A DNA stretch of 58,329 nucleotides, from assembly GCF_001424045.1 (NCBI RefSeq), contig NZ_LMQB01000029.1, forward strand, positions 177,295-235,623. The letters run 5' to 3'. Source of the DNA: Rhizobium sp. Leaf371. GTDB taxonomy: Bacteria; Pseudomonadota; Alphaproteobacteria; Rhizobiales; Rhizobiaceae. The translations under genes and the position numbers were made by a program. This document shows positions 2,926 to 41,651 of the stretch, one piece after another. The notes under the pieces were generated by a model. That model ran no database searches. It had not been told where the DNA came from and worked only from the letters and a program-made list of their open reading frames with translations. The first letter of the stretch is position 1. Every line of letters starts with the position of its first letter.

Positions 2926-2946
2926 GTGATAATATCAGGTTATACC
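2926..2946. promoter_or_regulatory. Regulon box 1 (GTGATAA-N7-TTATACC)
   Basis: A copy of the recurring dyad GGTATAA-N7-TTATACC with a perfect right half and a left half of GTGATAA. It lies 125 bp upstream of the YCII-domain gene at 3072. The spacing (T-N11-A across the core) is the same as in the other boxes of this window. It is the outermost copy on the left and marks the border between the IS graveyard and the metabolic island. Confidence 0.6.
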
Positions 2947-3071
2947 CGGAACCCGGTGATCGTTGCAGCTTGTCGATGTGACGGATACTTTGACCACGGG
3001 ATAGTCGGCCGCGTTCGAGCCTATGTGTGCATGATAATCCTCATCTTATCATGGTCAGCAAGGAGGCACAG

Positions 3072-3371
3072 ATGGCCTATGCGATAACGTTTACAGATGA
3101 CATGGGCGTTCTGGAACGAAAGAAAGAAATCAGGCAGACGCATATCGACTACGTCATGCAGAACGCGCACCGCATCATCGCAAGCGGAGGCTTTTTTCCT
3201 GATGAAGACGATTTTCCCAACGGTGGCCTGATCTTGCTGGATACTGACGTTCGTCAGGAAGCCATCGATTACATTGAAAACGACCCCTTCTTTCGCGAGG
3301 CCATTTTCACAAAATATACGATCCGCCGCTGGAAGAAGTTCGTCTTCGACCATAAGCACGTGCCAGCCTAA
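3072..3371 (+). CDS. YCII-domain (YciI-like) protein
   Basis: A 99-residue protein of the YCII family, a small ferredoxin-like fold often found as stand-alone domains in catabolic clusters, with no single established reaction. Visible family features are a His in THIDY near residue 24 and the ENDPFF block (Asp71-Pro-Phe) near the end. The start at 3072 is chosen because AAGGAGG sits about 6 bases upstream; an in-frame ATG at 3027 has no such site. It is transcribed alone, with regulon box 1 upstream and a hairpin downstream. Related proteins include muconolactone-isomerase-like and dehalogenase-like folds, so a role in an acid-sugar route is only suggested by context. Confidence 0.8.
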   Translation: MAYAITFTDDMGVLERKKEIRQTHIDYVMQNAHRIIASGGFFPDEDDFPNGGLILLDTDVRQEAIDYIENDPFFREAIFTKYTIRRWKKFVFDHKHVPA

Positions 3372-3388
3372 CAAGCTCGGCGAGCCAG

Positions 3389-3423
3389 CCACAGCATCTT
3401 GATTTCAACTCAAGAAGCTGTGG
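3389..3423. terminator. Hairpin after yciI-like gene
   Basis: A 14-bp stem with one mismatch (CCACAGCATCTTGA paired with TCAAGAAGCTGTGG) and a 7-base loop. It begins 17 bases after the stop of the YCII gene. No T-run follows on either strand, so termination is likely but not certain. Confidence 0.5.
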
Positions 3424-3551
3424 CGAGCTCCATTGCATATATGGCGGTTAGCAATACAAAAGCCAGCCAGCAGGCTCTTGTCTAAGCGAAGAGCCTTGAA
3501 AGGCCGACAGAGCAACGGCGTTCCTCCGTTTAATACGCCGGTCACCAGTCG

Positions 3552-4307
3552 TCAGTGGAACGTTCTGCCGCCGTCCACAGCGAGCGTTGCGCCTGTCACG
3601 TAAGATGACTCCGACGACGTTAGGAACAGCATGGCGCGCGCGATCTCCAGGGGGTCCGCGATCCTTTTCAAGGCATAGTTCCCGACATTGGCACGGAATC
3701 CATCGGCCATGGGCGTATCGACCATGCCCGGGCACACGCAGTTGACGCGAATGTTCGGAGCGAGATCCGCAGCCAGCGCCTTCGTGAGAGCGATGATGCC
3801 GCCTTTCGAAGCAGCATAGGCCGCAAGTCCTGGGACATTTGGCAGAAGTCCTGCTCCTGAGGCAACATTGACGATCGTTGCGCTATCGTTGCGCGTCAGC
3901 CACGGGAGGCAGTTCTGAACAACTAGAAAGCTCCCGGTGAGATTAACCTCGATGACCTGACGCCAAGTCTGGGACGACAACTCGGCGGTTGGGCCGGTCA
4001 TCATGATGCCGGCCGCATTGATCACTCCGTCGATCCCGCCAGTGATCTCTGCTGCATCAGCAATCGCTTCCGCAAGTTCATTCTCGCTGGTGATGTCGAC
4101 GCCGGTGAGAACGGCGTGACGACCTTCATGTGCCGCTTTCAGAGCATCGGCGTTTCGATCAAGGAGAATGACACTCGCGCCTTCCTCCATGAACAAGGTC
4201 GCCGTCCTCAGCCCGATTCCCGAAGCCGCTCCCGTGATGACGATCTTCCGACCGACAAGACGAAGGTTATGCGAAGGTTTCACGTCGTTCTCTGGCATGA
4301 TCGTCAT
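3552..4307 (-). CDS. SDR-family oxidoreductase (NAD-type)
   Basis: A 251-residue classical short-chain dehydrogenase, which interconverts a hydroxyl and a carbonyl on an unknown substrate. Visible: the cofactor loop GAASGIG at 26-32, an acidic Asp50 at the end of beta-2 favouring NAD over NADP, the NAAG motif at 97-100, Asn122, catalytic Ser150, Tyr164 and Lys168, and a C-terminal GATLAVDGG. Start taken at ATG 4307; ATG 4298 is equally possible and neither has a strong ribosome site. It is transcribed away from the ABC transporter operon and could share regulon box 2. Polyol or sugar dehydrogenation is the likely role from context. Confidence 0.85.
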   Translation of the reverse strand: MTIMPENDVKPSHNLRLVGRKIVITGAASGIGLRTATLFMEEGASVILLDRNADALKAAHEGRHAVLTGVDITSENELAEAIADAAEITGGIDGVINAAGIMMTGPTAELSSQTWRQVIEVNLTGSFLVVQNCLPWLTRNDSATIVNVASGAGLLPNVPGLAAYAASKGGIIALTKALAADLAPNIRVNCVCPGMVDTPMADGFRANVGNYALKRIADPLEIARAMLFLTSSESSYVTGATLAVDGGRTFH

Positions 4308-4959
4308 TCCGTTGGCTGGAGAGTTTGCGCATGTCGCTACGCAAAGCCGTATGATTGGACAGGAGACACTGCGGGGAACGGTGCCATCGCTTGTGAGAGG
4401 CTTAGGTCGTTTGCACCCTGCTAGACATCCATTGGAGCAGATGGGCATTCAAGAAGCGAGCCGAAATCCAAAGTCACGCCAGTGTTTATATAAGCGGAGA
4501 TTTTAACCTTCGCGCAATCGGCGGCTATGTTGGCGGAGCCGTCTTGACAAGAGAAGGACGACATTGCGCTTCGTCGCCAGACAGTTCGGGACGTGCTTGG
4601 GTGTCCTGACCAGATTGTGCCTGCACCCGGTCGCGTCATCGTGCTGACCGGCCCTCAACGCCATGCCGGTATTCCGAAGACGCGCCCATCCCGAGCGGGG
4701 TATAATTTTTAGTTATACCTTGTCTCCTTTAGTATAGTTCTATTATGTTCTTGATAAACATAAATAATTCAGAATTTTTCAAAGATTGCGAACGTCTTCT
4801 TACGTTGTCTTGCCGATTTCGATCCGTTGACAAAAACGTGCTCACTACGAATACCCTTGGCCTGTGAGCGGCGGATGCTCGCACGACTCTTCGTGGTCGC
4901 AAGACCCGTCGCAGGAGCGGATAGGCAGGTTGGCGCAAGCGCCGTCGGTGGAGGAATTG
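4308..4959. other. Divergent intergenic region with box 2
   Basis: This 650-bp stretch separates the two divergent SDR genes. It contains the perfect regulon box at 4699-4719 and an AT-rich tract at about 4705-4800. A possible sigma-70 promoter follows, TTGACA at 4827-4832 with a 17-base spacer and a weak AATACC at 4850. I recognise no gene between 4440 and 4690, where short open frames have no family features. Confidence 0.5.
4699..4719. promoter_or_regulatory. Regulon box 2, perfect palindrome
   Basis: GGTATAA-TTTTTAG-TTATACC: both 7-base arms are exact complements, making this the archetype of the series. It lies 240 bp upstream of the SDR-ABC operon starting at 4960 and 391 bp from the divergent SDR start. 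The T-N11-A spacing agrees with LysR-type operator geometry. Confidence 0.72.
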
Positions 4960-5715
4960 ATGAAGAGATTTGAAGGTCGCGCGGTGATGGTGACCGGTGC
5001 GGGAAGCGGTATCGGTGCTGCCTGCGTTCGCCGCCTGCATTCCGAGGGTGCGGATGTGGTTGCCATTGATGTCACAGAGCACGCGGTTGACAAGATCGTC
5101 TCTGAGTTTGACGGTAGCCCGCGTGTCAAAGGCGCCGTGCTCGACGTCTGCGACCAGCGGGCAGCTTTAGCGCTGGCTGAGGAAACCCGCACTCGGCTCG
5201 GCCGGCTGAACGGTCTTGTTAACTGTGCAGGCATTACCGGCGTGGCCAATATTCTCGATGTTGAGCCTGAAAAGCTCGAGCGTGTTCTGGCGGTCAATTT
5301 CGGAGGCACGGTGAATATGTGCCAGGCCTTCGTCCGGGCCGTTCAGCACGACAAGACACCCCGCGCCATCGTCAATATCTCTTCCGGCGCCGGCGTCATG
5401 GGGGTTGCGAACCGGCTTCCTTATGTTGCTTCGAAATTCGCGGTTTCGGGCATCACCAAATCCATGTCGCCCGAACTCGGCCCGCTCGGTATCCGTGTCA
5501 ATGCCGTGGCCCCCGGCATGACCAATACACCGCTGGTCGAATACATGCTGAAGGATCCGGCCGCCGTAGCGCGCATCAACGCGGCGCATCCAATCGGACG
5601 CATGGGCGAACCGGAGGAGATCGCGGCCGTTATCGTCTTCCTTCTGACCGACGACGCGAGCTTTATGACGGGCGCTGTCGTCTCGGTCGATGGCGGCCAG
5701 ACGGCCTGCCTTTAA
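4960..5715 (+). CDS. SDR-family oxidoreductase
   Basis: A 251-residue classical short-chain dehydrogenase at the head of a sugar ABC transporter operon. Visible: GAGSGIG at 13-19, Asp37 (NAD preference), NCAG at 88-91, Asn113, catalytic Ser142, Tyr155 and Lys159, and C-terminal GAVVSVDGG. The start at ATG 4960 is preceded by GGAGG about 7 bases away, whereas upstream in-frame starts lack this. The next gene begins 143 bp downstream. A lactonase lies further along the same strand, so a likely role is oxidation of an imported sugar to its lactone; the substrate is not evident from sequence. Confidence 0.87.
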   Translation: MKRFEGRAVMVTGAGSGIGAACVRRLHSEGADVVAIDVTEHAVDKIVSEFDGSPRVKGAVLDVCDQRAALALAEETRTRLGRLNGLVNCAGITGVANILDVEPEKLERVLAVNFGGTVNMCQAFVRAVQHDKTPRAIVNISSGAGVMGVANRLPYVASKFAVSGITKSMSPELGPLGIRVNAVAPGMTNTPLVEYMLKDPAAVARINAAHPIGRMGEPEEIAAVIVFLLTDDASFMTGAVVSVDGGQTACL

Positions 5716-5858
5716 GCGCGCTGGCCTCGGTGTTAAGCGGGCGGCTCGAGGAAATCGCCCGCATCCTTCGGTGAATGGCCGGAGGTGCGAACAGTGGCAA
5801 TCCGGATCGAATGAACCGGGGTCCGCACTTTGCAGAGTATCTTCGGGAGGAGGATAGG

Positions 5859-8369
5859 GTGAGAGACGATCCATCAGGCGCGCGACAGGATAAGGCCGCC
5901 TTCATTTCTGTCCGTGACCTTTCACGGAGCTTCGGCGCCAGCACGGTTGTGCGCGACGTTACGCTCGACATCCGCGCCGGAGAAATCCTGGTGCTTCTCG
6001 GGCCGAACGGCGCGGGGAAATCGACCCTTCTCAACATGATCGGCGGTACCTTACAGCCGAGCGCGGGTACCATGGCGCTCGATGGCCAGGCGGTCGATTT
6101 CGACAGCTACATCGCAGGATCAGCGCGCTCGCGGGGCATCCAGAGGGTATTTCAGGAGCTTTCGACCTTTCCGAACCTCACGGTCGGTGAGAATCTGGCT
6201 CTTACATCTCGGCAAAAGGCAGGATCGTCGCGCCGCGAGATGATGCGCCGCGCACGGGAGCGCTTGCAGGTCTTCCCCGGCAATTGCATCGACGTTTGTG
6301 CGGAGGTTTCGCAGCTTTCGGTGGCCGAGCGGCAGATGGTCGAGATCGCGCGGGCCATGACGGAACCCGGCACGCACCTCGTCATTCTCGACGAGCCGAC
6401 GTCGGCATTGTCGTTGCAGGAAGCCGATCAGCTCGCCGATCTGGTCAGCCGGAAAGCCGCCGAGGGCGTTGCGATCATCTACGTGACGCACAAACTGGAA
6501 GAGGCGCTGCGGCTTGCCGACCGCGTTGTCGTCCTTCGCGATGGCAGGCTGCATTTCGACGGCGATGGGCGCACCCTGACACACGATCGGCTTCTGACAT
6601 TGCTGGGAGCGACGGCAGAGCCGACGATGCCCGCCTCGGCGCAGGTGACGGACGCCGCGCAGCGCGAGCTCCTGACAGTCCGCGGCCTGTCGGCGCCACG
6701 ATTGCACGACGTCGGCATTCATGTCTGCGAGGGTGAGATCGTCGGCATTGCCGGGCTCGAAGGGGCAGGGCAGCGGGAGTTGCTCCAGGCGGTCTTCGAC
6801 GCGCGGCGCAGCACGATCGGGGCCATCGTCTCGCAGAGCGACATGGCTTATGTCAGCGGCGATCGCAAGCGCGAGGGTCTGTTGCCGCTCTGGACCGTCG
6901 AGGACAACGTGGCGATCTCGGCGGCGCCTAGGTTCTCGCGGTTCGGTTTCGTCAATTTTGCCGCACTCAAGGCGACCGCGGGGGACTGGCTGGCTGAACT
7001 CGGTCTCTCGCACCGCGCCAATTCCCCAATCGTCAGCCTCAGCGGCGGCAACCAGCAGCGGGCTTTGCTCGGCCGGGCTCTGGCCAGCGAGGCACAGCTT
7101 CTGCTTCTGGACGATCCGACTCGCGGCGTCGATGCCAGCGCCAAGGCCTCGATCTATTCCATCCTCGACAAGGTAAAGGAGAAGGGCCGCAGCGCAATCC
7201 TGTATTCGACCGAGGTGGCCGAGTTTCAGAAATGCGACCGGGTCTACGTTATGGCGCGCGGTCATGTCGTTGCCGAATTCTCCGGTGCCGAGGCAACCGA
7301 GGAGCGGATCGTGCAGGCGTCCTTCATGCAGCCCTCTTCGCTGCAGGGGAGAGGGCAGGTTTCGAACGGCACATCGCCGCCGAAGACCGTCAAGGTCGAA
7401 CCTGCCGCCGCTGCATCCGCACAGCCCCTCTCCGGACAGGCGTCATTCGGCCATCTCCTGTCGTGGCGATCCCTGCCGGCGGCCCTCCTGATGGTGGCTA
7501 TGTTTGCCTTGGCCTTCTGGCTGCAGCCGAACGCGCTTAGCACCTTCGGGCTTGAACTGCTGCTGCAGGCCTCGATGCCGCTGGCTTTTGCCGTCCTGGC
7601 ACAGATGCTGTTCCTTCTCGGCGGCGATATCGATCTCGGGCTCGGCTTTGCCATTGGCCTCGCCAATGTGCTTGCCGCCACCTATCTCGTCGATGCCCCG
7701 GCGATTGCGATGATCGCAATGCTGGGCATCGTCATGGGTTATGTCCTGCTGGCTTTCATTGTCGAGATCCTTGGGGTCTCCTCGGTTGTGGCGACGCTCG
7801 GTGCTTCTTTCGTCTGGCTGGGGCTGGGACTCATGGTTCGGGAGACGCCGGGAGGACAATCGCCCGAGTGGCTTGCCGCTCTGACCCGTTTCAAGCTCTG
7901 GCCACTCCCGCTGGCCTGTTACGTGCTCCTCGCACTCGCCCTGCTGGGCCTGTGGATCTGTCAGGGATGGGGTTACAGCATCCGCCTGCGCGCCCTCGGC
8001 CATAACCGGCGGACCTACGTGTCGCTCGGCTTTTCGGCCTTGGCGGGTCGGATCACGCTCTATGCGCTGGCGGGAGTGTTCGCCGTTCTGTCGGGTCTCG
8101 TTCTGACCGCTGCCACAGGAGCCGGTAATGCCCACGTCGCCTCGAACTTCACCCTGGCCACCATTGCCGCGGTGGTCGTCGGTGGCGCGAGTTTTGCTGG
8201 CGGGCTCGTGTCCCCGATTGGCGCGGTGATGGCCGTGGTCGGGATTTCCCTGATCACCACCAATCTTGGCTTCCTCGGAATCAGCTCGGAATATTCGACC
8301 GCGATCGGCGGGCTTGCGCTGATCACGGCGCTGAGCTTCCGCTCCCTCTCCAGGTCCACCGCGTCATGA
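5859..8369 (+). CDS. Fused ribose-type ABC transporter ATPase-permease
   Basis: An 836-residue fusion of an RbsA/MglA-type double ATPase and an RbsC-type permease. The first nucleotide-binding domain has Walker A GPNGAGKST at 48-56, signature LSVAERQ near 151 and Walker B VILDEPTSA near 174. The second has a degenerate P-loop (GLEGAGQREL), signature LSGGNQQ near 394 and LLLLDDPTRG near 415. A linker of about 60 residues leads to a permease domain from about 534 with about eight membrane helices. A GTG start at 5859 is chosen because GGGAGGAGGATAGG lies just upstream; ATG 5775 is an alternative. ATPase and permease are usually separate proteins in this family. The stop overlaps the next permease by 4 bp. 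Confidence 0.9.
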   Translation: MRDDPSGARQDKAAFISVRDLSRSFGASTVVRDVTLDIRAGEILVLLGPNGAGKSTLLNMIGGTLQPSAGTMALDGQAVDFDSYIAGSARSRGIQRVFQELSTFPNLTVGENLALTSRQKAGSSRREMMRRARERLQVFPGNCIDVCAEVSQLSVAERQMVEIARAMTEPGTHLVILDEPTSALSLQEADQLADLVSRKAAEGVAIIYVTHKLEEALRLADRVVVLRDGRLHFDGDGRTLTHDRLLTLLGATAEPTMPASAQVTDAAQRELLTVRGLSAPRLHDVGIHVCEGEIVGIAGLEGAGQRELLQAVFDARRSTIGAIVSQSDMAYVSGDRKREGLLPLWTVEDNVAISAAPRFSRFGFVNFAALKATAGDWLAELGLSHRANSPIVSLSGGNQQRALLGRALASEAQLLLLDDPTRGVDASAKASIYSILDKVKEKGRSAILYSTEVAEFQKCDRVYVMARGHVVAEFSGAEATEERIVQASFMQPSSLQGRGQVSNGTSPPKTVKVEPAAAASAQPLSGQASFGHLLSWRSLPAALLMVAMFALAFWLQPNALSTFGLELLLQASMPLAFAVLAQMLFLLGGDIDLGLGFAIGLANVLAATYLVDAPAIAMIAMLGIVMGYVLLAFIVEILGVSSVVATLGASFVWLGLGLMVRETPGGQSPEWLAALTRFKLWPLPLACYVLLALALLGLWICQGWGYSIRLRALGHNRRTYVSLGFSALAGRITLYALAGVFAVLSGLVLTAATGAGNAHVASNFTLATIAAVVVGGASFAGGLVSPIGAVMAVVGISLITTNLGFLGISSEYSTAIGGLALITALSFRSLSRSTAS

Positions 8370-9364
8370 ACCAAACCACCAGCATCATCGATCGTCCCGC
8401 ACCCCTTCCGGAAGCGCCGGTCGGCCTCTGGCGCCGTCTTCTGCGGCAGTCGTGGATCGGGGCACTCGCTGCAGCCCTTTTCCTCTGGCTTCTTGCCGGA
8501 GTGGTCACCGGCTCCCTGTCGCTGTCTTTCCTGCTGGCCAACGCGACCATTGCCGGTTTCCTTGCCTTGGCCGGAACGGCACAGATGGTCGTGATCGCCA
8601 GCAAACCGGGCAATTTCGATCTCTCGCTCCCGTATGTGATCACCTTCGGCGCATATATCATGTCCGCAGGCCTTCTCGGGCAGGGCAATATTGCCGGTTC
8701 CCTGGCGCTGACGGTGCTGGCCGGCGGTCTCGCCGGCGCCCTGAACGCCCTTCTGATCGTCCGGCTTCGCATTCCGGCCATCGTCGCGACCCTGGCATCG
8801 GGCTACATCATCTACAGCCTCATCGTTGCCATCCAGGGCGGTGGTTTCACCCGGGTGGGCGGGCTGTTCGAGGCGGCGCTGCGCTTGCGGATCGCCGGCG
8901 TCTCGGGGGCGTTGGCGGCAACGATCGCGACGCTGGCGCTGGTCGCCATTCTGCTGTCGCGCACCGTCTTCGGCCTGCAGCTGCACGCAATGGGGCAAAA
9001 CGGAGAGGCAGCCCGGCTGGCCGGTGTCCGGCGCGGCTGGTTGACGCTCGGCACATTCGTATTGTCGGGAGTCCTCGCCGCGTGGCTGGGCGCGCTGCTT
9101 GCCACCTACCAGGGTGGCGTGTCCGCCGATCTCGGCCGCAGTTATCTTCTGGGTTCCGTCGCCGCCGTGGTCGTCGGTGGCACCCGCATCACCGGGGGCA
9201 TCACGTCGGTCCTCGGAACGGCGATCGGTGCCCTGGTGCTGACCCTCGCCCAGTCGGACCTGATCCTGCTGCAACTGAGCATCGGAGCCCAATACGTCAT
9301 CCAGGGACTGATCGTCCTCGGAACGGTCTGCCTCGTGGCAGCCCGCTCATCGAACCGCGGCTAG
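8366..9364 (+). CDS. Ribose-type ABC transporter permease
   Basis: A 332-residue inner-membrane permease of the RbsC/BPD_transp_2 family with about eight to ten hydrophobic helices. The family block GLQLHAMGQNGEAARLAGV in the middle is the cytoplasmic loop contacting the ATPase, and the C-terminal region carries VVVGGTRITGG. The start overlaps the end of the fusion gene (ATGA at 8366-8369), so the two are translationally coupled. With the permease half of the fusion it would form a heterodimeric pore. The periplasmic binding protein follows 50 bp downstream. Confidence 0.9.
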   Translation: MNQTTSIIDRPAPLPEAPVGLWRRLLRQSWIGALAAALFLWLLAGVVTGSLSLSFLLANATIAGFLALAGTAQMVVIASKPGNFDLSLPYVITFGAYIMSAGLLGQGNIAGSLALTVLAGGLAGALNALLIVRLRIPAIVATLASGYIIYSLIVAIQGGGFTRVGGLFEAALRLRIAGVSGALAATIATLALVAILLSRTVFGLQLHAMGQNGEAARLAGVRRGWLTLGTFVLSGVLAAWLGALLATYQGGVSADLGRSYLLGSVAAVVVGGTRITGGITSVLGTAIGALVLTLAQSDLILLQLSIGAQYVIQGLIVLGTVCLVAARSSNRG

Positions 9365-9414
9365 CCCGCGATGCGGGAACATCACGTCACAATCACAACA
9401 AGGAGGAGGAACAC

Positions 9415-10446
9415 ATGACAAGAACGTTCGCAAAACACTGGATACTCACGGGAACGCTGATGGTCGCAGCGGCCCTGGGGGCTGGCTCCGCGCAGGCCGC
9501 CGGCGAAAAAATCACCATCGGCATCGCCATGCCCTTCCAGGGCAATGGCTGGCAGAAGGGTTTTCTCGCCGCGGCGCAATGGGCTGCCAGCGAAATTACG
9601 GCCAAGGGCGACAAAACGGTCGAACTGACCGTTGTTGATGCGGCAGGCGATACGCAAACGCAGATCCAGCAAATCAACAACATGACGCTGCAAGGCGTGG
9701 ATTTCATCATTCTCGAACCGCTTTCGGACACAGCGCTCAACGGTGCGATCGACAATGCGGTCGGCGCCGGTATCCCGGTTCTCACAACGGCGCTCGGCTC
9801 GGTCACCAACCAGAAGGCGATCGACCTGCAGTTCGACTACAACGAATTTAGCGAGAAGTATGTCAGCTACGTCGCCGAACGGACGGGCGGCAAAGGCAAT
9901 GCCCTGAACATTCGCGGTCTGGCCGGAAACGCGGCGGAACAAGCCATCCAGGATGCGTATGTCAAGGCACTCGCGAAATATCCCGATATCAAGCTTGTGG
10001 CGGAGGTCTATGGCGACTGGAACCAATCGGTCGCCCAGCAGCGGGTCTCCGCCATTCTGCCGACCCTGCCCCAGATCGACATCATCTTCTCGCAGGGTGT
10101 TGCGGCATTCGGCGCGGCGCAAGCCTTCATGGCTGCGGGACGTGACGTACCCCTCCAGGTCTACGGTTTCGACGGGGTCGACACGAACCTGCTCCTCGAA
10201 CTCAATGCGAAATCGGGCTATCAGTCGGTAGCGATCAACACCGATCCCGGTATCGGCGGTGTCGCCGTGAATGTGGCCGTCGCCAAGCTCGGCGGCGTGG
10301 ACGTACCCATGAAGATGATCTTGCCGGTCCCGACCATCACCATGGAAGACCTTAGGACGACCTACAAGGGCATGGCCGACAGCGATATCGCCTGGCTGAA
10401 GTACACCTACGACTGGACGATGTCGAATATGATTAAAGCCAAATAG
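9415..10446 (+). CDS. Periplasmic sugar-binding protein of ABC transporter
   Basis: A 343-residue type I periplasmic binding protein of the ribose/galactose group (Peripla_BP_4). A signal peptide is visible (basic start MTRTFAKH, hydrophobic core, cleavage after AQA near 28), then the first strand ITIGIAMPFQGNGWQKGF and a VDFIILEPLS segment typical of the family. Start ATG 9415 has AAGGAGGAGG 5-10 bases upstream, the strongest ribosome site of the operon, fitting the high level needed for a binding protein. Ligand is unknown; neighbouring SDR and lactonase suggest a pentose, tetrose or branched sugar. Confidence 0.9.
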   Translation: MTRTFAKHWILTGTLMVAAALGAGSAQAAGEKITIGIAMPFQGNGWQKGFLAAAQWAASEITAKGDKTVELTVVDAAGDTQTQIQQINNMTLQGVDFIILEPLSDTALNGAIDNAVGAGIPVLTTALGSVTNQKAIDLQFDYNEFSEKYVSYVAERTGGKGNALNIRGLAGNAAEQAIQDAYVKALAKYPDIKLVAEVYGDWNQSVAQQRVSAILPTLPQIDIIFSQGVAAFGAAQAFMAAGRDVPLQVYGFDGVDTNLLLELNAKSGYQSVAINTDPGIGGVAVNVAVAKLGGVDVPMKMILPVPTITMEDLRTTYKGMADSDIAWLKYTYDWTMSNMIKAK

Positions 10447-10491
10447 CGCCGGGCGTCGTCAGTCTGCCCAGTTCGGAAGGCTTTCCGAAAA

Positions 10492-15651: not shown

Positions 15652-15680
15652 TGCATGTTCCTCTCTTCCCGGTCTGGCGG

Positions 15681-33603: not shown

Positions 33604-33610
33604 GTCTGGC

Positions 33611-34096: not shown

Positions 34097-34289
34097 TTCG
34101 AGATGTTCCCTCGATGGTGTTGGGCGTCAGTTAGTCTGTGGCGGCGCGTCAGCGGCCCGATCACGCGGACAAGGTTGTGATGACGCATGTGCAGGGCTCT
34201 GAAAGAGGAGCCGGTGAACCCTCGCGCTGAGACGCGCAAGGCGCTGTCGGCGATCCAATCCCGTCGCGGGAGCCCTGGCCGGACAACGA

Positions 34290-35771
34290 CTAGCGCATGA
34301 TGAACGGATTGGTTGGCCCCTCGTCGGCGGTCGACATGAACACGCTCTTGGTCTCCAGATATTCGTTGATCGCCTCGATACCGCCTTCGCGTCCGAGCCC
34401 GGACTTCTTCATGCCACCGAATGGCATCATGTAGCTATAGGCGCGGTAGGTGTTCACCCACACGGTGCCGACCTTCAAGGCTTTGGTCATGCGCATCGCG
34501 CGGCCGATATTCTGGGTCCAGACACCGGCAACCAAGCCGTAGGCGATGTCGTTGCCAATCTCTATCGCCTCGTCCTCGGTATCGAACGTGATGATCGAAA
34601 GGATGGGACCGAAGACCTCTTCCTGAGCGATGCGCATCGTGTTTGTGACATCGGCGAAGATCGTGGGCTCCACGAACTGGCCGCCTGTCAGTCCCTCGCC
34701 GGTGGCAGTGTGTCCACCCAGGATCAGGCGCGCACCGTCCGCGCGTGCTATATCTAGGTAATCCATAACTTTTTTGAACTGCGGCGGTGTGGAGATGGGG
34801 CCGACATTCGTGTTGGGGTCCATCGGATCGCCCATCCTGATATGACGAGCCAGTTCCAACAATTTTTCGGTAAAAGCCTCCTTGATCGAGCGATGCACGA
34901 GAAGGCGTGAGCCGGCGGTGCACATCTGGCCGGACGCTCCGAAGATTCCCGACACGACGCCCGCAGCGGCGAGTTCCAGATTGGCATCCTCGAAAACGAT
35001 ATTCGGCGACTTTCCACCCAGTTCGAGCGAGACGCGCTTCATGTGTCTTGCGGCTGTCTCATAGATCCGGGCGCCCGTCGCATCCGAACCGGTAAAGCTG
35101 ATCTTCGTCACATCGGGGTGTTCGACCAGTGCCGCACCGGCTTCGTGTCCAAAGCCGGTGACGACGTTGAAGACGCCGTCGGGCATGCCGGCTTCCTTGA
35201 CGAGCGCGGCAAGTTCGAGCGTGCTTGCCGATGCAAACTCGGATGGCTTGACGACGACGCTGCATCCAGCGGCAAGTGCCGGGGCACATTTAACGGTCGC
35301 AAACCAGATCGGCGAATTCCAGGCGGTCAACGCAGCGACCACCCCGATTGGCTCGCGAATGGTAAAGGCCAGCGTGTCGGGCTTTTCGATCGGAATCGAC
35401 GAGCCCTCGATCTTGTCGGCCAAACCACTGAAATAGTACCAGCACTCCGCCACGCCATTGAGCTGACCGCGAACTTCCGCCAGGAGTTTGCCGTTGTCAC
35501 GCGACTCGATCCTTGCGATCCTGTCGGCATTGCTGACAACAAGATCGCCGATTTTCCTCAAGATCTTGCCGCGTGCGCTGGCCGTCATCTTGCTCCAGGG
35601 GCCGCTTTCCATGGCGCGAAGTGCCGACGCGACAGCACGATCGACGTCGCCGCTGGTCGCGCGGGCGATCTCGGCCCAGGCCCTGCCGTGATACGGATCG
35701 TCAGTCTCGATCCATTCGCCGCCTTCCGCGTCGCTAAATGCTCCGTCGATGAAAAGCTGATACCTGTGCAT
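34290..35771 (-). CDS. Aldehyde dehydrogenase family protein
   Basis: A 493-residue ALDH-superfamily enzyme. TAWNSPIWFATVKCAPAL (oxyanion Asn) near 150, catalytic Glu in SLELGGKSPNIVFED near 250, catalytic Cys in GASGQMCTAGSRL near 285, and EEVFGPILSIITFDTEDEA near 385 are intact. ATG 35771 follows AGGAGTC. It is inserted between the tctC and tctB genes of one operon, which links its substrate to the solute carried by TctABC. The C-terminal block GGMKKSGLGREGGIEAINEYLETKS resembles betaine/hydroxymuconic-type ALDHs. The exact aldehyde is not evident. Confidence 0.9.
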   Translation of the reverse strand: MHRYQLFIDGAFSDAEGGEWIETDDPYHGRAWAEIARATSGDVDRAVASALRAMESGPWSKMTASARGKILRKIGDLVVSNADRIARIESRDNGKLLAEVRGQLNGVAECWYYFSGLADKIEGSSIPIEKPDTLAFTIREPIGVVAALTAWNSPIWFATVKCAPALAAGCSVVVKPSEFASASTLELAALVKEAGMPDGVFNVVTGFGHEAGAALVEHPDVTKISFTGSDATGARIYETAARHMKRVSLELGGKSPNIVFEDANLELAAAGVVSGIFGASGQMCTAGSRLLVHRSIKEAFTEKLLELARHIRMGDPMDPNTNVGPISTPPQFKKVMDYLDIARADGARLILGGHTATGEGLTGGQFVEPTIFADVTNTMRIAQEEVFGPILSIITFDTEDEAIEIGNDIAYGLVAGVWTQNIGRAMRMTKALKVGTVWVNTYRAYSYMMPFGGMKKSGLGREGGIEAINEYLETKSVFMSTADEGPTNPFIMR

Positions 35772-35824
35772 GCTGACTCCTGGACTGCGTCTTGAGGGGC
35801 TTTCGGGTACATTGCGGCGTGGCA

Positions 35825-35855
35825 GCTCACGCCTGCGTCAAACGCAGGCGTGAGC
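35825..35855 (-). other. Strong hairpin between tctC and ALDH genes
   Basis: A perfect 14-bp stem (GCTCACGCCTGCGT with ACGCAGGCGTGAGC) with only a 3-base loop, in the 117-bp gap between tctC and the downstream ALDH. No T-run follows on the minus strand. A structure like this can protect the tctC part of the mRNA or limit read-through, giving more binding protein than membrane subunits. Confidence 0.7.
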
Positions 35856-35888
35856 ATCATCTCATCCGCGGCACGTTGGCCGAAGCCG

Positions 35889-36866
35889 CTATTTATTCAG
35901 TTTGATGTCGTTCTCAGTGATGATCTTGCGAAATCGGTTCTGCTCGCTGACAAGAAACGCCTTGAAGTCGTCACCGGTCTTGAGATCCGTCTGGAATGAC
36001 AGAGGGCCGAACCGCTCCTGGAACTTCGGAGTCTGAACGCCCTTGACGACCGCCGCAGAAAACCGGCTGGCGACGTCCGCGGGAATACCCGCGGGGGCGA
36101 GATAGCCGTACCAGACGCGACCGTCGATCTGCGGGTAGCCGAGTTCGGCTGTCGTGGGAACGTCCGGGAGATTGCTTGTGCGGGCCGGCGATGTCACCGC
36201 AAGCACGGTCACATTTTCGTCGTTCTTGAGGATGGCCCCCTCGCGTGCCGACACGAACATCATCTGGGTAAAGCCGCCGGCCACTCCCTGAATGCCGTCC
36301 GGGTTGTTCTTATAGGAAACGTTGATCCCTTTGCCCTTGGCTTCGCGGATGAACGTCGTGCCTGTCAGGTGCGCGATGGTGCCGACACCGGCCGTTGCGT
36401 AGGTCACGCCTTCAGGAGAGTGAATGGCGGCCATAAGGTCATCGATCGTATTGATCCCGGCTTTCTTCGATGCAATGAGCGCCAGAGGATAACCGCCGAT
36501 TCCGACAATCGGCGTAAAGCTGTCGAGCGTGTAGGGTAGCCTGTCGCGCAGGACCGTCTGGACAAGACCAGAGGTCGGCAAACACAGGATACTGTATCCA
36601 TCGGGTTTCGCAGAGGACGCTGCGGTCACGCCGATGGTCGTTGATCCGCCTCCACGGTTCTCGATGACCACGGCCTGCCCGAGCTCCGATGTCAGCGTTT
36701 CCGCAAGGAAGCGGCTCAGTGTGTCGTCGTCTCCACCCGGCGCATTGGCGATGGTGATCGTGATAGGACGAGCAGGCCATTCCGCTTGCGCCTTGGCCAC
36801 GCTCGACATCAATGCCATGGAGCCGACCGTGCCGGCGCCAATCAATACGTTTCTTCTCGAAATCAT
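35889..36866 (-). CDS. tctC: Tripartite tricarboxylate transporter, substrate-binding protein
   Basis: A 325-residue Bug/TctC protein with a Tat-type leader (MISRRNVLIGAG, hydrophobic stretch, AKA cleavage near 26). The ligand loops read ITIANAPGGDDDTLSRFL and IENRGGGSTTIGV; the first loop has an APGGDDD acidic run in place of the usual YPPGGSTD, hinting at an unusual ligand. First gene of the operon tctC-ALDH-tctB-tctA, with regulon box 10 located 178 bp upstream. It is clearly distinct from the orphan TctC at 11678. Confidence 0.9.
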   Translation of the reverse strand: MISRRNVLIGAGTVGSMALMSSVAKAQAEWPARPITITIANAPGGDDDTLSRFLAETLTSELGQAVVIENRGGGSTTIGVTAASSAKPDGYSILCLPTSGLVQTVLRDRLPYTLDSFTPIVGIGGYPLALIASKKAGINTIDDLMAAIHSPEGVTYATAGVGTIAHLTGTTFIREAKGKGINVSYKNNPDGIQGVAGGFTQMMFVSAREGAILKNDENVTVLAVTSPARTSNLPDVPTTAELGYPQIDGRVWYGYLAPAGIPADVASRFSAAVVKGVQTPKFQERFGPLSFQTDLKTGDDFKAFLVSEQNRFRKIITENDIKLNK

Positions 36867-37242
36867 ATAGTCCTCCCGAATTCCGGCATTTTTGCCAAGC
36901 GCACAGATCGAATTCCGGCGTTTTCCAAACGCTCTGACCTCCCAGCGCGTCCATCCTCAAGGCCGTATGACGGCTTTGATGCGAGGGCCAATCGACCTCG
37001 TTCGACCGTTCATGTAAAGCGGAAAGCCGGATTTCCGGTCCTCTATTATAATGCAAAGTTATAGCTTGCGGGGTGCCGGCAAGAGAAAAGGCATGCGCCA
37101 AATGACCGGAGGAGGCCATTGAAAATCATCCATGTTGTCACAGACGACACGGCTGTTTCTCTAACGTTACGGATCGTTATGACGGCTGCCGCGTGCCTTC
37201 GGAAGGCAAGACACGCTCTGCCGCCACCTGCGCTCAGCGTCT
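36867..37242. other. Intergenic region upstream of tctC with box 10
   Basis: A 376-bp gap containing box 10 at 37045-37065. I see no gene in it. The 3' end of the cyclase gene lies on the right side, and no clear terminator for that gene is seen. Confidence 0.45.
37045..37065. promoter_or_regulatory. Regulon box 10 (ATTATAA-N7-TTATAGC)
   Basis: Core TATAA-N7-TTATA intact with changes only in the outer bases, 178 bp upstream of the minus-strand tctC operon. Confidence 0.6.
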
Positions 37243-38586
37243 CTAAGCTCCACTTGCGTCCGCCATCGTCGCCGCTTTAGCCGGCGTGAACACCTCGATC
37301 GAGCCGAAGCGGTTTCGGATCTGAACCTGACCGAGGCTCCGGAGCGATGGATGAGCGTCAGCCTTTGCAACCGTCATACCGCAGACGAGACAGTTCGTGC
37401 CCATTTCCTTGTTCAGTTCCTGGAGTCTCTGCGCGAGATTGACGGCGTCGCCATAGACCGTATAGGTCTGGCGCTCTCCCGTTCCCACCGTTCCCGCAGA
37501 AATGAAGCCCGTTGCCACGCCGATGCGAACGCGCAGAGATCTCCTGTCGAAGAGCCGGCTCTCAGACATCGCAAGAATGTCTTCGGCGGCCGTCAGCGCC
37601 CGGTCGGCATGACCTTCGATCGGAAGCGGGGCATTGAAGGAAATGAGTACCGCATCGCCGATATAGTTGATGACGACCCCTCCATTTCGATCGACGATAT
37701 CGGTAATGGCCGTAAAGAACGCGTTGAGCATCTCAACGAGCTCTGCAGGTTTCATGCCCTGTGACAGGCGGGTGAACCCTTTGATATCTGCGAACATCAG
37801 CGTCGCAAGCCGTGTTTGGGGCGCTAGCTGCCCTTCATCGATCAGTTTTCGAACGATCGGCGCAGGAACGTAACGCCCGAACAGGGTTCGAACGCGGCGA
37901 GCGCGGGCTTCCGACTTGGCCTGATCCTTCACGACCCTGCGGGCCTGATGGACGGCGAGGGCCGCGATGGCGGTGACCAGCGAGATAATCAGAGCTTCCT
38001 GCAGCCGCGACGCAATGCCGAGAAAGTTCGGATCGAGAACCGTCTGTATGTAGATGTCTCTGGATGGTGAGATCGGCAATGCATTGTAGCTGACCACATG
38101 ATCCATGCCGGACATGATCCACCATGTCGCAAAAAGCAGCCCACCAGCAGCCCATAAGCCGGTCCACAGGACGAGCGGCGGTGAGAGCGTCAGAACGGCC
38201 GCGGCAACGACGAGATAATAGTGCTGGACGGAACTCGTCATGAACACGAGGTTCTGTGGAATATCTCCGCCGCTGCTCAGAGGCACGAATGCCAGCAAGA
38301 TCGTGACGGCCGACGCATCGAATGCGAACAACACGAAACGCGCCGCTTTTTCGAACCGCGTGCCGATAGCGGCAAGGGCGGTGAGGCCCCCGACGGCGAC
38401 AATCGCCGTAATGGCGAAAATCGCGATATTGATTGGAAAGTAGTAGCTGAGGAGATAGGCGACGGCGATCATCATGACGGCCGCCGTTCGACCGATCACA
38501 GCCATCTTGAAGCCCCTGCGTTCCGCCCGGCTCAACGCCAATGCCGTCGCATCCGGCAAACTGGCGGATAGGTGCTTCAGTGCCAT
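37243..38586 (-). CDS. Membrane-anchored class III adenylate/guanylate cyclase
   Basis: A 447-residue protein with about six membrane helices (residues about 30-220) joined by a coiled linker to a class III nucleotidyl cyclase domain (about 245-435). Both metal-binding aspartates are visible in LMFADIKGFTRLSQ and NYIGDAVLISFN. The transition-state Asn and Arg occur in YGDAVNLAQRLQE, where the preceding Asp is typical of adenylate cyclases. Start ATG 38586 has AAGGAG just upstream. It follows an ALDH gene by 164 bp on the same strand and may be the last gene of that unit. It would make cAMP as a signal tied to the state of the membrane or the catabolic pathway. Confidence 0.88.
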   Translation of the reverse strand: MALKHLSASLPDATALALSRAERRGFKMAVIGRTAAVMMIAVAYLLSYYFPINIAIFAITAIVAVGGLTALAAIGTRFEKAARFVLFAFDASAVTILLAFVPLSSGGDIPQNLVFMTSSVQHYYLVVAAAVLTLSPPLVLWTGLWAAGGLLFATWWIMSGMDHVVSYNALPISPSRDIYIQTVLDPNFLGIASRLQEALIISLVTAIAALAVHQARRVVKDQAKSEARARRVRTLFGRYVPAPIVRKLIDEGQLAPQTRLATLMFADIKGFTRLSQGMKPAELVEMLNAFFTAITDIVDRNGGVVINYIGDAVLISFNAPLPIEGHADRALTAAEDILAMSESRLFDRRSLRVRIGVATGFISAGTVGTGERQTYTVYGDAVNLAQRLQELNKEMGTNCLVCGMTVAKADAHPSLRSLGQVQIRNRFGSIEVFTPAKAATMADASGA

Positions 38587-38750
38587 TGCACTCCTTGTCA
38601 CATCGCGTTCGTCACCCCGGCATCCTCAATCCTATACCGAAACGCGGACTCCCGCCACCTCGCGCCGATCAGCATATCGTGAAGCGCCGTCCTTGGGAGC
38701 GTTTGCGCGGAGGTCTGCCAAAACCGTGGTGAACCGGAGGGCTGGACCGT

Positions 38751-40208
38751 TCACCCAAGGCCGCCGATGTGGAAACTTTTCATCTCCAGATACTCTTCGA
38801 TACCGCATTGCGATCCCTCGCGTCCGAGGCCGGATTGCTTGACGCCGCCAAAGGGCGCGACCTCGGTCGATACGGAGCCTGTGTTAAGGCCGACCATTCC
38901 GAATTCCAGCGCTTCAGCAACACGCCAGGAGCGCTTCAGGCTCTCGGTATAGAAATAAGAGGCGAGACCGAAGGGTGTGTCATTGGCGATCGCAATCGCT
39001 TGCTCCTCCGTTTCGAACCGGAAGAGCGGCGCGACCGGCCCGAAGGTCTCCTCGTTTGCAAGCAGCATATCCGTCGTCGCCTCTCCGAGGACCACGGGTA
39101 CGGCGTATTGCGAACCTTCGGGCATCTCCGGCGGAGCCGACAGCACGCGCGCGCCCTTTGACAGCGCATCCTCGAGATGCCGATTGATCTTGTCGATGGC
39201 CGCGGCATTGATCATCGGTCCGATATCGACGGGCGAGCCGGCACCTGGGCCAACCTTCAGGGCAGACACGCGTGCGCAGAGCTTTTCGGCGAATGTATCA
39301 TAGACGCCCGCCTGGACGAGAATGCGGTTCGAACAGACGCAGGTCTGGCCTCCGTTGCGAAATTTGGAGACGATCGTGCCCTCGACGGCAAGGTCGATAT
39401 CGGCATCATCGAACACGATGAGAGGCGCATTTCCCCCGAGTTCGAGGCTCAACCGCTTGATGCTGTCGGCCGCGCCGCGCATCAGAAGGGATCCGACGCG
39501 TGTCGAGCCGGTGAAGGAAATCTTGCGGACCGCTTCATTGGCCATCAGCTCGTTGCCAATGTCGGACGGCATGCCCGTGACGATGTTGATCACGCCCGGC
39601 GGAATGCCTGCGCGCTCGGCCAGAACGCCGAGCGCCAGAGCAGAGAAGGGGGTGAACTCGGAGGGCTTTACGACCACGGTGCAGCCAGCGGCAAGAGCAG
39701 GCGCAACCTTGCGCGTGATCATGGCGTTCGGAAAATTCCACGGCGTGATGATCGCACAGACGCCAACCGGCTCCTTGAGAACGATGATGCGGCGGTCCGG
39801 CGTGGGCGAGGGAATGGTGTTCCCGCCGATCCGGCGGGCTTCTTCCGCGAACCATTTGACGAAGGAAGCGCCGTAGCGGATCTCGCCGTGGGCTTCCGCT
39901 AGCGGTTTCCCCTGCTCGATCGTGAGCATCATCGCGAGATCATCCTCGTGCTCGACGATGAGGCGGTGCCATGCCTCGAGGAGGAGGGCGCGTTCCGCAT
40001 GGGTCTTTGCTTTCCAGGGGCCTAATGCCGTCTGCGCGGCGGTGATCGCCTGGCGTGTTTCCTCGCCACTGACATCCGGAACGTGGCCGATCACATCCTG
40101 CGTGGCAGGGTTCGTCACCGGAACGGCAGCAGCCGACGCGGCACTGATCCATACGCCGTCGATCAGGCATTGTTGCCGGAATAAACTCTGGTCCTTCAGG
40201 GCCTGCAT
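38751..40208 (-). CDS. Aldehyde dehydrogenase (succinate-semialdehyde type)
   Basis: A 485-residue ALDH resembling GabD-type semialdehyde dehydrogenases: TPWNFPNAMITRKVAPALAAG near 155, SLELGGNAPLIVFDDAD with catalytic Glu near 255, NGGQTCVCSNRILVQ with catalytic Cys near 290, and FGGVKQSGLGREGSQCGIEEYLE at the end (given here as landmarks: FGGVKQSGLGREGS, then GIEEYLEMK). ATG 40208 is preferred to ATG 40217 because the AAAAGG site leaves proper spacing only for the former. It lies 18 bp after the tartrate-dehydrogenase-like gene and both probably act on the same C4 chain. Confidence 0.89.
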   Translation of the reverse strand: MQALKDQSLFRQQCLIDGVWISAASAAAVPVTNPATQDVIGHVPDVSGEETRQAITAAQTALGPWKAKTHAERALLLEAWHRLIVEHEDDLAMMLTIEQGKPLAEAHGEIRYGASFVKWFAEEARRIGGNTIPSPTPDRRIIVLKEPVGVCAIITPWNFPNAMITRKVAPALAAGCTVVVKPSEFTPFSALALGVLAERAGIPPGVINIVTGMPSDIGNELMANEAVRKISFTGSTRVGSLLMRGAADSIKRLSLELGGNAPLIVFDDADIDLAVEGTIVSKFRNGGQTCVCSNRILVQAGVYDTFAEKLCARVSALKVGPGAGSPVDIGPMINAAAIDKINRHLEDALSKGARVLSAPPEMPEGSQYAVPVVLGEATTDMLLANEETFGPVAPLFRFETEEQAIAIANDTPFGLASYFYTESLKRSWRVAEALEFGMVGLNTGSVSTEVAPFGGVKQSGLGREGSQCGIEEYLEMKSFHIGGLG

Positions 40209-40226
40209 CTCGATCATCCTTTTCTA

Positions 40227-41270
40227 TCAGACAAGCGCGGCCAGAACGGCAGCCGTTATCTTATCCGTCTTGTCTTTGCCGGGCTCGGTGCCGATACCGC
40301 CGGAGGTCGCCGTCTCGATGGCCCGGATGATGTCGGCAGCCGCCGCAGCTTCACCCAGGTGATCCAGCATCATTGCTGCCGACCAGATGGCGGCGATCGG
40401 ATTGGCGATGCCGAGGTGAGCGATATCCGGCGCGGATCCGTGCACCGGTTCGAACATGGAAGGCGCGCTTCTGTCGGGGTTTATGTTGGCGGATGCCGCA
40501 TATCCCAGACCGCCCTGGATAGCTGCGCCGAGGTCGGTCAGAATGTCACCGAAAAGATTGGACGCAACGACAACGTCGAGGCTTTCAGGCATCATGACCA
40601 TGCGGGCCGCCATGGCATCGATGTGATAGGTCTTGGCCTCGACATCGGGATACTCGGCCGCCAGTTTCTCCGTCATTTCGTCCCAGAAGACCATGGAGTA
40701 CTTCTGGGCATTGGATTTCGTCACCGATGCCAGCTTCTTGCGGCGCAGACGGGCCTGCTCGAAGCCGAACCGCAAGATGCGCTCCACGCCCTTTCGTGTG
40801 AAAATGGAGGTCTCGACCGCCACTTCGTCCTGCGTGCCGACATGCACGCGGCCGCCGGCGCCGGAATATTCCCCTTCGGTATTCTCGCGGATGCAAAGGA
40901 TATCGAACCCACCGGATTTCAGGGGGCCATTGACGCCGGGAAGCAGGCGGTGAGGCCGGATATTGGCGTATTGGACGAAGGCCTTGCGGATCGGCAGCAA
41001 CAGACCGTGCAGCGAAACCGAATCCGGCACTTCCGCCGGCCACCCCACCGCACCCAGCAGGATTGCGTCGTGAGCGCGCAAAGTTTCAAGCCCGTCCGAC
41101 GGCATCATCGCCCCGGTTTCTCTATAAAACGCGCAAGACCAGGGAAATGTCGTCGCCTGCAGGTGAAAATCCGATCGCTCGGCGGCGCGTTCAAGCACCC
41201 GCCAGGCAGCGTTCGTCACTGCCGCACCGATGCCGTCTCCCGGGATGAGAGCAATCGAATACGTCTTCAT
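40227..41270 (-). CDS. Tartrate dehydrogenase-like (TtuC family), second copy
   Basis: A 347-residue isocitrate/isopropylmalate dehydrogenase-family enzyme, paralogous to the gene at 19317. PGDGIGAAVTNAAWRVLE at the start, CIRENTEGEYSGAGGRVHVG in the middle, TKSNAQKYSMVFWDEM, then DAMAARMVMMPESLDVVVASN, DILTDLGAA and MFEPVHGSAPDIAHLGIANP. Start ATG 41270 follows AAGGAG. It heads a unit with the ALDH at 38751. NAD-dependent oxidation of tartrate, malate or a related hydroxydiacid is likely; the differing sequence from the first copy suggests a different isomer. Confidence 0.87.
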   Translation of the reverse strand: MKTYSIALIPGDGIGAAVTNAAWRVLERAAERSDFHLQATTFPWSCAFYRETGAMMPSDGLETLRAHDAILLGAVGWPAEVPDSVSLHGLLLPIRKAFVQYANIRPHRLLPGVNGPLKSGGFDILCIRENTEGEYSGAGGRVHVGTQDEVAVETSIFTRKGVERILRFGFEQARLRRKKLASVTKSNAQKYSMVFWDEMTEKLAAEYPDVEAKTYHIDAMAARMVMMPESLDVVVASNLFGDILTDLGAAIQGGLGYAASANINPDRSAPSMFEPVHGSAPDIAHLGIANPIAAIWSAAMMLDHLGEAAAAADIIRAIETATSGGIGTEPGKDKTDKITAAVLAALV

Positions 41271-41439
41271 TTCGTCTCCTTGGATCGGCCAGCGCATTTT
41301 CAGATTGGACAGTTTGACGACCCATAGGCAGCCAACGCCTCCTGATATCGACGAAGCTGTCGCAAGGAGGTTGGAAGCCCAGGATGTTGTCATTCATATC
41401 GCACTTCGAGATCTTGCGGTGAAGGAGGGGAGCGCAAGG

Positions 41440-41460
41440 CGGCAAACATGATGTTATACC
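41440..41460. promoter_or_regulatory. Possible regulon box 11, right arm only
   Basis: A perfect right arm TTATACC with the left arm degenerate (CGGCAAA) at the standard spacing, 169 bp upstream of the TtuC-like gene. Its position fits the pattern, but the match is weak. Confidence 0.3.
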
Positions 41461-41630
41461 CCTCCCCAATCCTGCCTGAGCGTGGTCACGAGCGAGAATC
41501 TTCCGTTTTAGCTCTACTCAGGCGTGCACTGCTGCATGTGGCAGGCCATTTGCGGCGGAGGACCGTCAATCGCGACCCTGCCTCCGGCAATCGCTAATAT
41601 CTGATGAAGTTCTAACGTTCTTTCATTCAA

Positions 41631-41651
41631 GATATAACATTCATCTATAAC
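41631..41651. promoter_or_regulatory. Regulon box 12 (GATATAA-N7-CTATAAC)
   Basis: Arms nearly complementary, with one core change, 184 bp upstream of the chemoreceptor gene. It is the rightmost copy of the series. Confidence 0.58.

Follow-up and report, generated by a model that had tools for sequence, protein, structure and literature searches.

A recurrent 21-bp dyad as the predicted operator of two paralogous LysR-type regulators in a sugar-acid gene cluster of Rhizobium sp. Leaf371

Introduction

The PcaQ regulon of Sinorhizobium meliloti concerns plant-derived acids, and the ttu tartrate operons of Agrobacterium vitis, which Crouzet and Otten are said to have described in 1995, reportedly place a tartrate dehydrogenase under a LysR-type regulator in a small operon. 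In this work, a stretch of 58,329 nucleotides from Rhizobium sp. Leaf371 (positions 177295 to 235623 of contig 29, NZ_LMQB01000029.1; hereafter the window, 1.15% of a 5.09-Mb genome in 29 contigs) was analysed for an interrupted 21-bp dyad, GGTATAA-N7-TTATACC, which recurs across a 42-kb cluster of sugar-acid genes that also encodes two paralogous LysR-type regulators, LysR1 and LysR2. As the dyad stands before most operons and is conserved beside relatives of these regulators elsewhere, the operons very probably form a single nutrient-use system under common control, with the dyad as its mark.

The PcaQ regulon resembles the present cluster in having a LysR-type regulator and a similar core (ATAacc...TAT), and PcaQ was the best NCBIfam model for both LysR proteins and CynR the third. 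However, both models stayed far below their cut-offs; for PcaQ the two proteins reached 131.8 and 138.8 bits where 303.8 bits are required, and their membership in the PcaQ family was rejected on this score. No pca (protocatechuate) genes were found among the genes scanned from 2.9 to 44.7 kb, so the cluster does not qualify as a PcaQ regulon. In the available text of PMC5002191 the PcaQ site is similar to ATAA-n7-TTAT and the same core is the predicted operator of CynR of E. coli, but CynR serves one local operon (cynTSX) whereas about 13 operons are clustered here. The GguR regulon of Halomonas (galactarate and glucarate) also unites sugar-diacid catabolism and a TctABC-type transporter, but GguR is described as a GntR-family factor in the accessible part of PMC5507952, unlike the LysR-type regulators of the window, and identity of the latter with GguR was rejected on this ground. 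VdtR likewise belongs to a four-carbon acid sugar pathway (erythronate and L-threonate, in Brucella) but is a DeoR-family regulator according to the portion of PMC10580937 at hand. No paper recognised as describing the present regulon was found in the open-access literature; the subscription literature lay mostly outside the search, which makes the result a weak argument for novelty. The regulon is apparently new, with an ordinary mechanism and a CynR/PcaQ-like box.

Occurrence of the dyad in the window and in the genome

The search for GGTATAA-N7-TTATACC with at most three mismatches produced 10 matches in the window compared to 0.20 expected, and none of 100 shuffled sequences reached 10. 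The perfect 15-bp core ATAA-N7-TTAT was found 9 times compared to 0.08 expected, while the same core with spacers of N5, N6, N8 and N9 was found 0, 0, 1 and 0 times. The dyad is therefore real as a recurring sequence signal. The core contains T-N11-A, and an interrupted dyad with a preferred spacer of 7 has the geometry of a LysR-type operator. With the starts called here, the site centres lay 96-433 bp before the assigned start codons, or 53 bp for the element at 29502.

Genome-wide, 9 of the 19 perfect cores fell in the window, as did 11 of the 20 matches to TATAA-N7-TTATA with at most one mismatch (including all 4 perfect ones) and 10 of the 30 matches to the full 21-mer with at most three mismatches. 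The genome totals of the two looser patterns were below those of a backward-read control (20 versus 28 and 30 versus 63, respectively), so the evidence lies in the clustering of the matches and not in their number.

An external symmetric matrix was then built without any Leaf371 sequence, the training set being 46 distinct sites at 22 loci in other genomes; since these sites were picked by their core, the matrix owes nothing to the window but does presuppose the motif. With 400,000 bases of Leaf371 sequence (contigs 29, 1 and 23) as background, a threshold of at least 14 bits gave 10 window sites, all within 2.9-44.7 kb, and no background site. At lower thresholds the window and background counts were 10 versus 1 (12 bits) and 13 versus 9 (6 bits). 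The eight best window sites (21.5 to 28.5 bits) were all intergenic, and the perfect core at 43791, inside a coding region, is probably a codon-driven accident. All 10 perfect cores outside the window, scored with their flanks, reached a maximum of 14.7 bits; scoring in this genome covered the 400-kb sample and 15 candidate stretches, which takes in imperfect cores in part.

These results bear on an original prediction made from the sequence, which had listed eleven copies of the dyad. Ten of the eleven were good or fair matches, while 29502 was not a dyad copy, and the statement that the core is always ATAA-N7-TTAT failed at 26172, 29502 and 41631 as well as at 41440, a copy already admitted to be weak. 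The claimed spacing of 7 was borne out by the core counts, and the proposal that T-N11-A fits LysR-type regulators agreed with the equality of the core to the predicted CynR core and its resemblance to the PcaQ site, as far as the text of PMC5002191 at hand gives them. The claimed lack of dyads from 45 to 57 kb was matched by the absence of any external-matrix hit of at least 6 bits between 45 and 58 kb. Equally frequent matches elsewhere, which would have spoken against the prediction, were not seen in the 400-kb sample. One site, at 4487 (TATATAAGCGGAGATTTTAAC), had been overlooked.

Conservation in related loci

In the reverse direction, a matrix made from ten window sites identified 78 sites of at least 12 bits in 23 related loci (590,559 bases), with at least one site in every locus. 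Markov sequences gave 3, 1 and 1 sites, and matrices with a lengthened or shortened spacer gave 7-21. Exact cores in the same loci numbered 49 for N7 and 1, 3, 1 and 3 for N5, N6, N8 and N9. The 23-locus counts omit L024 (which is the record of L010), L014 and L029 (which overlap L005-L007) and L023; L023 was used in the related-locus, bicupin-promoter and one-type consensus comparisons, L015 and L023 were outside the matrix training set, and L001-L004 and L008 were not counted as related loci. Overall, the box with its preferred 7-base spacer recurs beside relatives of both LysR genes in Rhizobiales, in Rhodobacterales and on a Cupriavidus plasmid.

The promoter of the bicupin gene showed the widest conservation. 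The best-scoring site was found 82-118 bp before the bicupin start in 21 of 21 sequences and scored more than 9 bits in 19 of them; most of these loci belonged to the matrix training set, so the alignment and not the score is the evidence. The alignment also showed a conserved TTAtCTg-type stretch about 50 bp downstream of the dyad centre. If this putative -10 element is read correctly, the dyad would lie near -60, a distance of about 60 bp to the transcription start that comes from this one promoter. In addition, the dyad was seen in the aligned promoters of GlxR (8 sequences), SDRc (3 sequences) and TctC2 (3 sequences).

The element at 29502 keeps GGTATAA, with a second arm ATAYCC (ATACC-like) one base closer. 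Both relatives examined, R. leguminosarum Ta6 and G035, have it before their LysR2 orthologue (GGTATAATATATTCAATACCC and GGTATAATATATCGAATACCC). Compared with the window element (29502-29522), the Ta6 copy differs at 2 positions and the G035 copy at 4; the coordinates are 32690-32710 in L009 (2 mismatches) and 8996-9016 in L006 (4 mismatches). The GGTATAATATATTCAATACCC-type element sits 53 to more than 200 bp from the LysR2 start, a distance that differs strongly among relatives, and no copy with at most 4 mismatches was found in the 400-kb background. Conserved before LysR2 and missing from the background, 29502 is read as a putative asymmetric variant element and not as noise.

R. leguminosarum Ta6 has sites at 768860 and 788426 upstream of genes that match SDRa and TctC1 of the window by annotation and order, and its site at 778892 is at the start of an SDR gene preceding the ABC operon. 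From these sites, the regulon in Ta6 appears to span about 768 to 843 kb.

The two LysR-type regulators and their box

Two transcription regulators, LysR1 and LysR2, were present among the genes identified from 2.9 to 44.7 kb, and they were 58% identical. These paralogues are the most likely candidates to act on the dyad. Plasmids of Rhizobium, Ensifer, Sinorhizobium and Cupriavidus supplied 25 records with relatives, and named genome records supplied 19 loci, with Mesorhizobium, Microvirga, Gemmobacter, Rhodobacter, Limimaricola and Donghicola among the genera. A tree of 30 relatives including the window pair, together with two other LysR proteins of the window, separated a supported LysR1 group (11 rows, 99/97) from a supported LysR2 group (11 rows, 99/99). 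A long-branched Cupriavidus row joined the LysR2 group, and the Rhodobacterales rows branched before both groups. A third LysR relative, 49% identical, was noted at CP090120.1 769095-770009 near sites of the same kind.

At an E value of 1e-70, LysR1 was found in 2 of 247 genomes of the family, a rarity which suggests an accessory and probably mobile cluster. The regulator was not found in six genomes of the same genus at an E value of 1e-60, and these genomes had 0 to 2 copies of the motif with two mismatches compared to 6 in Leaf371.

For 20 loci, LysR relatives were sought throughout the genome or plasmid record that contains the locus. Ten of these 20 had a single LysR relative at an E value of 1e-60, in every case outside the LysR2 group, and each of the ten loci carried a site, for a total of 28 sites of at least 12 bits, some of them weak (L025, with two relatives in its genome, was kept out of this one-type group). 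S. shofinae had two relatives, both of the LysR2 group, and its locus has a site; together with an Ensifer plasmid, the loci with the LysR2 group only had 5 sites in two loci. The consensus was nearly identical, GnTATAACnTnAnGTTATAnC for the 10 loci without a LysR2-group gene (28 sites) and GGTATAACnTnAnGTTATACC for the 2 LysR2-only loci (5 sites). Since genomes with one LysR type carry nearly the same box, the simplest reading suggested is an operator shared by the LysR1 and LysR2 types.

In the window, the GlxR-LysR1 and PntAB-LysR2 operons diverge from the region 25989-26429, which holds the sites at 26075 and 26172. LysR1 and LysR2 each close one of the two operons, and directly upstream of LysR2 there is only the conserved variant at 29502. 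The two regulators are about 16 kb apart in R. leguminosarum Ta6, which means that the divergent double-operator arrangement is not general.

Target operons and pathway

A good site was found before the operons SDRb-ABC-SMP30, TctC1, MFS, the eight-gene aldolase operon, bicupin, GlxR-LysR1, SDRc and TctC2-ALDH2-TctB-TctA, and before the small open reading frame (ORF) at 3051 (Table 1). Weaker sites preceded SDRa, PntAB and the operon of the methyl-accepting chemotaxis protein (MCP) and SBP2, and a doubtful one preceded TDH2-SSADH-cyclase. PntAB is probably among the targets. Overall, the predicted targets include three transport systems, the L-threonate route, a tartrate dehydrogenase and the bicupin.

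Table 1. Dyad sites and genes of the cluster. Positions are those of the window, bits are scores with the matrix trained on other genomes, and operon limits follow from strand and spacing.
Feature	Position	Strand	Remarks
Putative operator before small ORF (3051-3371)	2926..2946		24.8 bits; perfect core
Weaker putative operator before SDRa (3552-4307, -)	4487..4507		10.5 bits; counterpart CP090120 768860 upstream of SDR gene, R. leguminosarum Ta6
Putative operator before SDRb-ABC-SMP30 operon	4699..4719		27.2 bits; perfect 21 bp, 0 mismatches
Putative operator before TctC1 (11678-12625, -)	12815..12835		28.5 bits; top window score
Putative operator before MFS arabinose-type transporter (+)	13037..13057		21.5 bits; MFS gene in L009, L010 and L013 likewise has an upstream site
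Putative operator in divergent aldolase (HpaI)/bicupin intergenic region	22935..22955		26.4 bits; most widely conserved site
Putative operator before GlxR-LysR1 operon (-)	26075..26095		25.3 bits; 96 bp before operon
Second putative operator, GlxR-LysR1/PntAB-LysR2 divergent region	26172..26192		9.1 bits; core 7/8, second half CTAT; 11/14 motif bases
Putative variant element before LysR2	29502..29522		GGTATAATCTATTCAATATCC; -6.9 bits as 7-spacer dyad; first half intact, without second TTAT half
Putative operator before SDRc (+)	30673..30693		21.9 bits; conserved in R. leguminosarum Ta6 and G035
Putative operator before TctC2-ALDH2-TctB-TctA operon (-)	37045..37065		21.8 bits; conserved in R. 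leguminosarum Ta6 and G035
Weak copy before TDH2-SSADH-cyclase operon (-)	41440..41460		8.7 bits; core 6/8
Putative operator before chemoreceptor-SBP2 operon (+)	41631..41651		15.1 bits; core 7/8, second half CTAT
Perfect core within SBP2 coding region	43791..43811		16.5 bits; ninth-best window score
SDRa oxidoreductase	3552..4307	-
SDRb, sugar ABC transporter (864-aa ATP-binding protein, permease, binding protein), SMP-30 lactonase-type protein	4960..11543	+
TctC1, binding protein of tripartite tricarboxylate transporter	11678..12625	-
MFS arabinose-type transporter	13480..14628	+	above NCBIfam cut-off
HpaI aldolase, ALDH1, tartrate dehydrogenase 1 (TDH1), LtnD, OtnK, OtnC, OtnI, second hydroxyacid dehydrogenase	14740..22812	-	TDH1, LtnD, OtnK and OtnC above NCBIfam cut-off
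Bicupin, 279 aa, unannotated, divergent partner of aldolase gene	23048..23887	+
LysR1, LysR-type regulator, downstream of GlxR	23972..24901	-	NCBIfam best match PcaQ, CynR third, both below cut-off; tree
GlxR, glyoxylate-reductase-type 2-hydroxyacid dehydrogenase	25057..25989	-
PntA and PntB, proton-translocating transhydrogenase	26429..29450	+
LysR2, LysR1 paralogue	29565..30599	+	starts 115 bp past last base of PntB; tree
SDRc oxidoreductase	30913..31737	+
TctA, TctB, ALDH2, TctC2	32110..36845	-
Nucleotide cyclase-domain protein, SSADH-type dehydrogenase, tartrate dehydrogenase 2 (TDH2)	37243..41297	-
Methyl-accepting chemotaxis protein, sugar-type periplasmic binding protein SBP2	about 41860..44681	+

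The L-threonate catabolic set LtnD, OtnI, OtnK and OtnC was present together. LtnD (416 bits), OtnK (537) and OtnC (287) exceeded their NCBIfam cut-offs of 350, 350 and 250, while OtnI (253 versus 325) was a best match only. LtnD-OtnI-OtnK-OtnC form a route from L-threonate to dihydroxyacetone phosphate, and the enzyme annotation fixes the substrate no further than this route. According to the available text of PMC12540250, L-threonate is an ascorbate degradation product in plants. The tartrate genes RL0995/RL0996 of R. leguminosarum are given as important in the pea rhizosphere in the accessible part of PMC3333776; they need not belong to this cluster.

A second PntB copy on contig 5 was 82% identical to that of the cluster, which shows that the cluster carries its own transhydrogenase. 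The related clusters of Ta6, G035 and T136 contain pntAB as well, and isolate R129_A has a more distant pair (43-51%). The bicupin did not have any Pfam family above cut-off. It was 61-95% identical in 18 relatives and, at the loci seen, adjoined the regulator or the aldolase gene. Fold matches supported a chain with two cupin barrels, but many unrelated cupins tied, so that no function can be read from them; among PDB sequences the bicupin profile had two weak cupin matches. The bicupin is probably an enzyme of the pathway.

SBP2 directly follows the chemoreceptor gene and is 41-61% identical to binding proteins in related clusters, a likeness which suggests that binding-protein-mediated chemotaxis to the same compound may occur. 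The nucleotide cyclase-domain gene (37243-38586) is directly 3' of the tartrate and semialdehyde dehydrogenase genes. An IS66 transposase fragment lies at 1105-1785, on the left edge of the cluster. Genes for a PaoC-type aldehyde oxidoreductase (45438-48803) adjoin the cluster and have no sites; in R. leguminosarum Ta6 (L057) the cluster itself contains paoA and related genes.

Discussion

The dyad is predicted to be the operator of a paralogous LysR pair and to mark a large plant-type sugar-acid catabolic regulon, a reading to which we assign a probability of about 0.86. The original prediction of one regulon was supported by the matrix test and by the recurrence of the box near LysR relatives, but two paralogous regulators sharing a box describe the data better than one proven regulon. 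Its inclusion of the chemoreceptor and TDH2 operons was sustained in part, through the weak sites at 41631 and 41440 of this single genome.

Several points weigh against the reading of a shared operator and a large regulon. Membership of TDH2 and of the chemoreceptor depends on those weak sites in one genome, and a tblastn search of 24 related stretches found no chemoreceptor. The assignment of the substrate comes from annotation only, and both the binding by the LysR proteins and the regulation of the targets are predictions from sequence. The presence of LysR1 in 2 of 247 family genomes leaves a co-occurrence test little power; the motif with one mismatch was in both of these genomes and also in 23 of the 245 others. 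The related loci were fetched for holding a LysR relative, so that the linkage of box and regulator is partly a matter of selection. In the 20 LysR-bearing genomes or records, the two-mismatch pattern exceeded the backward control in 9, which again leaves the clustering alone as informative, and one LysR-bearing genome (G073, L030) had no copy of this pattern. Finally, the bicupin-promoter dyad of L012 and L015 (Ensifer and S. shofinae) has a 6-base spacer (GCGATAACATAAGTTATACC) and scores -4.2 bits, and it sits at the otherwise conserved position.

The strongest alternative is that of two separate regulons, in which LysR1 and LysR2 control their own operons through merely similar boxes with slight cross-binding. 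The company that the genes keep agrees with it, as the LysR1 group travels with bicupin, aldolase, OtnK/C/I and GlxR and the LysR2 group with SDRb-ABC-SMP30 and TctABC-ALDH2, but the two consensus boxes are nearly the same and the helix-turn-helix segments of both regulators look alike. We regard separate regulons as a serious possibility, held at odds below even. It is improbable that the dyads serve a regulator whose gene lies elsewhere, be it a global factor or a further LysR protein of the PcaQ/CynR kind. The core does have parallels, given the predicted CynR core and the similar PcaQ site in the text of PMC5002191 at hand, but the window-site matrix found sites in each of the 23 loci with LysR relatives, and the perfect cores outside the window stayed at or below 14.7 bits.

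More improbable still is that the sites are -10 boxes of AT-rich divergent promoters, with TATAAT on both strands, and not operators. TATAAT is frequent in the window copies and one sigma-70-like match overlaps 22935, though the promoter scan gave nothing above chance (1 found versus 1.2 expected). In relatives, the base after ATAA is C in 59% and T in 22% and the outer G and C are kept at 79%; the cores prefer the spacer of 7 over 5, 6, 8 and 9 by 49 to 1, 3, 1 and 3, and a separate conserved -10-like stretch lies downstream of the dyad. Chance or a dispersed mobile repeat, to which the IS66 remnant might point, can practically be dismissed given the shuffle expectation of 0.2 and site flanks that are mutually unrelated while the dyad is conserved at orthologous promoters.

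If the dyad is the operator of the LysR pair, each regulator would bind it as its upstream recognition site, which at the bicupin promoter would stand about 60 bp ahead of the transcription start. The bound tetramer may then be shifted by an intermediate of the pathway, probably a C4 sugar acid or a related one, so that RNA polymerase is activated. From the two-operator divergent region and the variant element of LysR2 itself, induction should raise both regulators, a putative autoinduction giving positive feedback. The products would import sugars and acids and then oxidise and cleave them, L-threonate would be routed to dihydroxyacetone phosphate, and NADH and NADPH would be rebalanced by the dedicated transhydrogenase.

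More tentatively, and with less confidence than an even chance would imply, the two LysR paralogues may have held on to a single operator as they spread, each in the company of different genes, through Rhizobiales, Rhodobacterales and further groups, so that separately travelling modules would become one regulon when co-resident. In the window they would be joined around the divergent double-operator region with mutual positive feedback, and the regulon would define a sugar-acid pathway not yet described, centred on a new bicupin enzyme.

The system is unusual in its size, in the operator that two paralogues apparently share and in having an unannotated bicupin at the most conserved promoter. 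The dyad provides a searchable 21-bp signature for a catabolic system that has so far been annotated as scattered dehydrogenases and transporters; the likely regulators are named and the bicupin is flagged as a core member. Overall, the cluster would offer a natural example of an operator that paralogous regulators have kept in common, in which a standard laboratory rhizobium makes cross-regulation between acquired modules testable.

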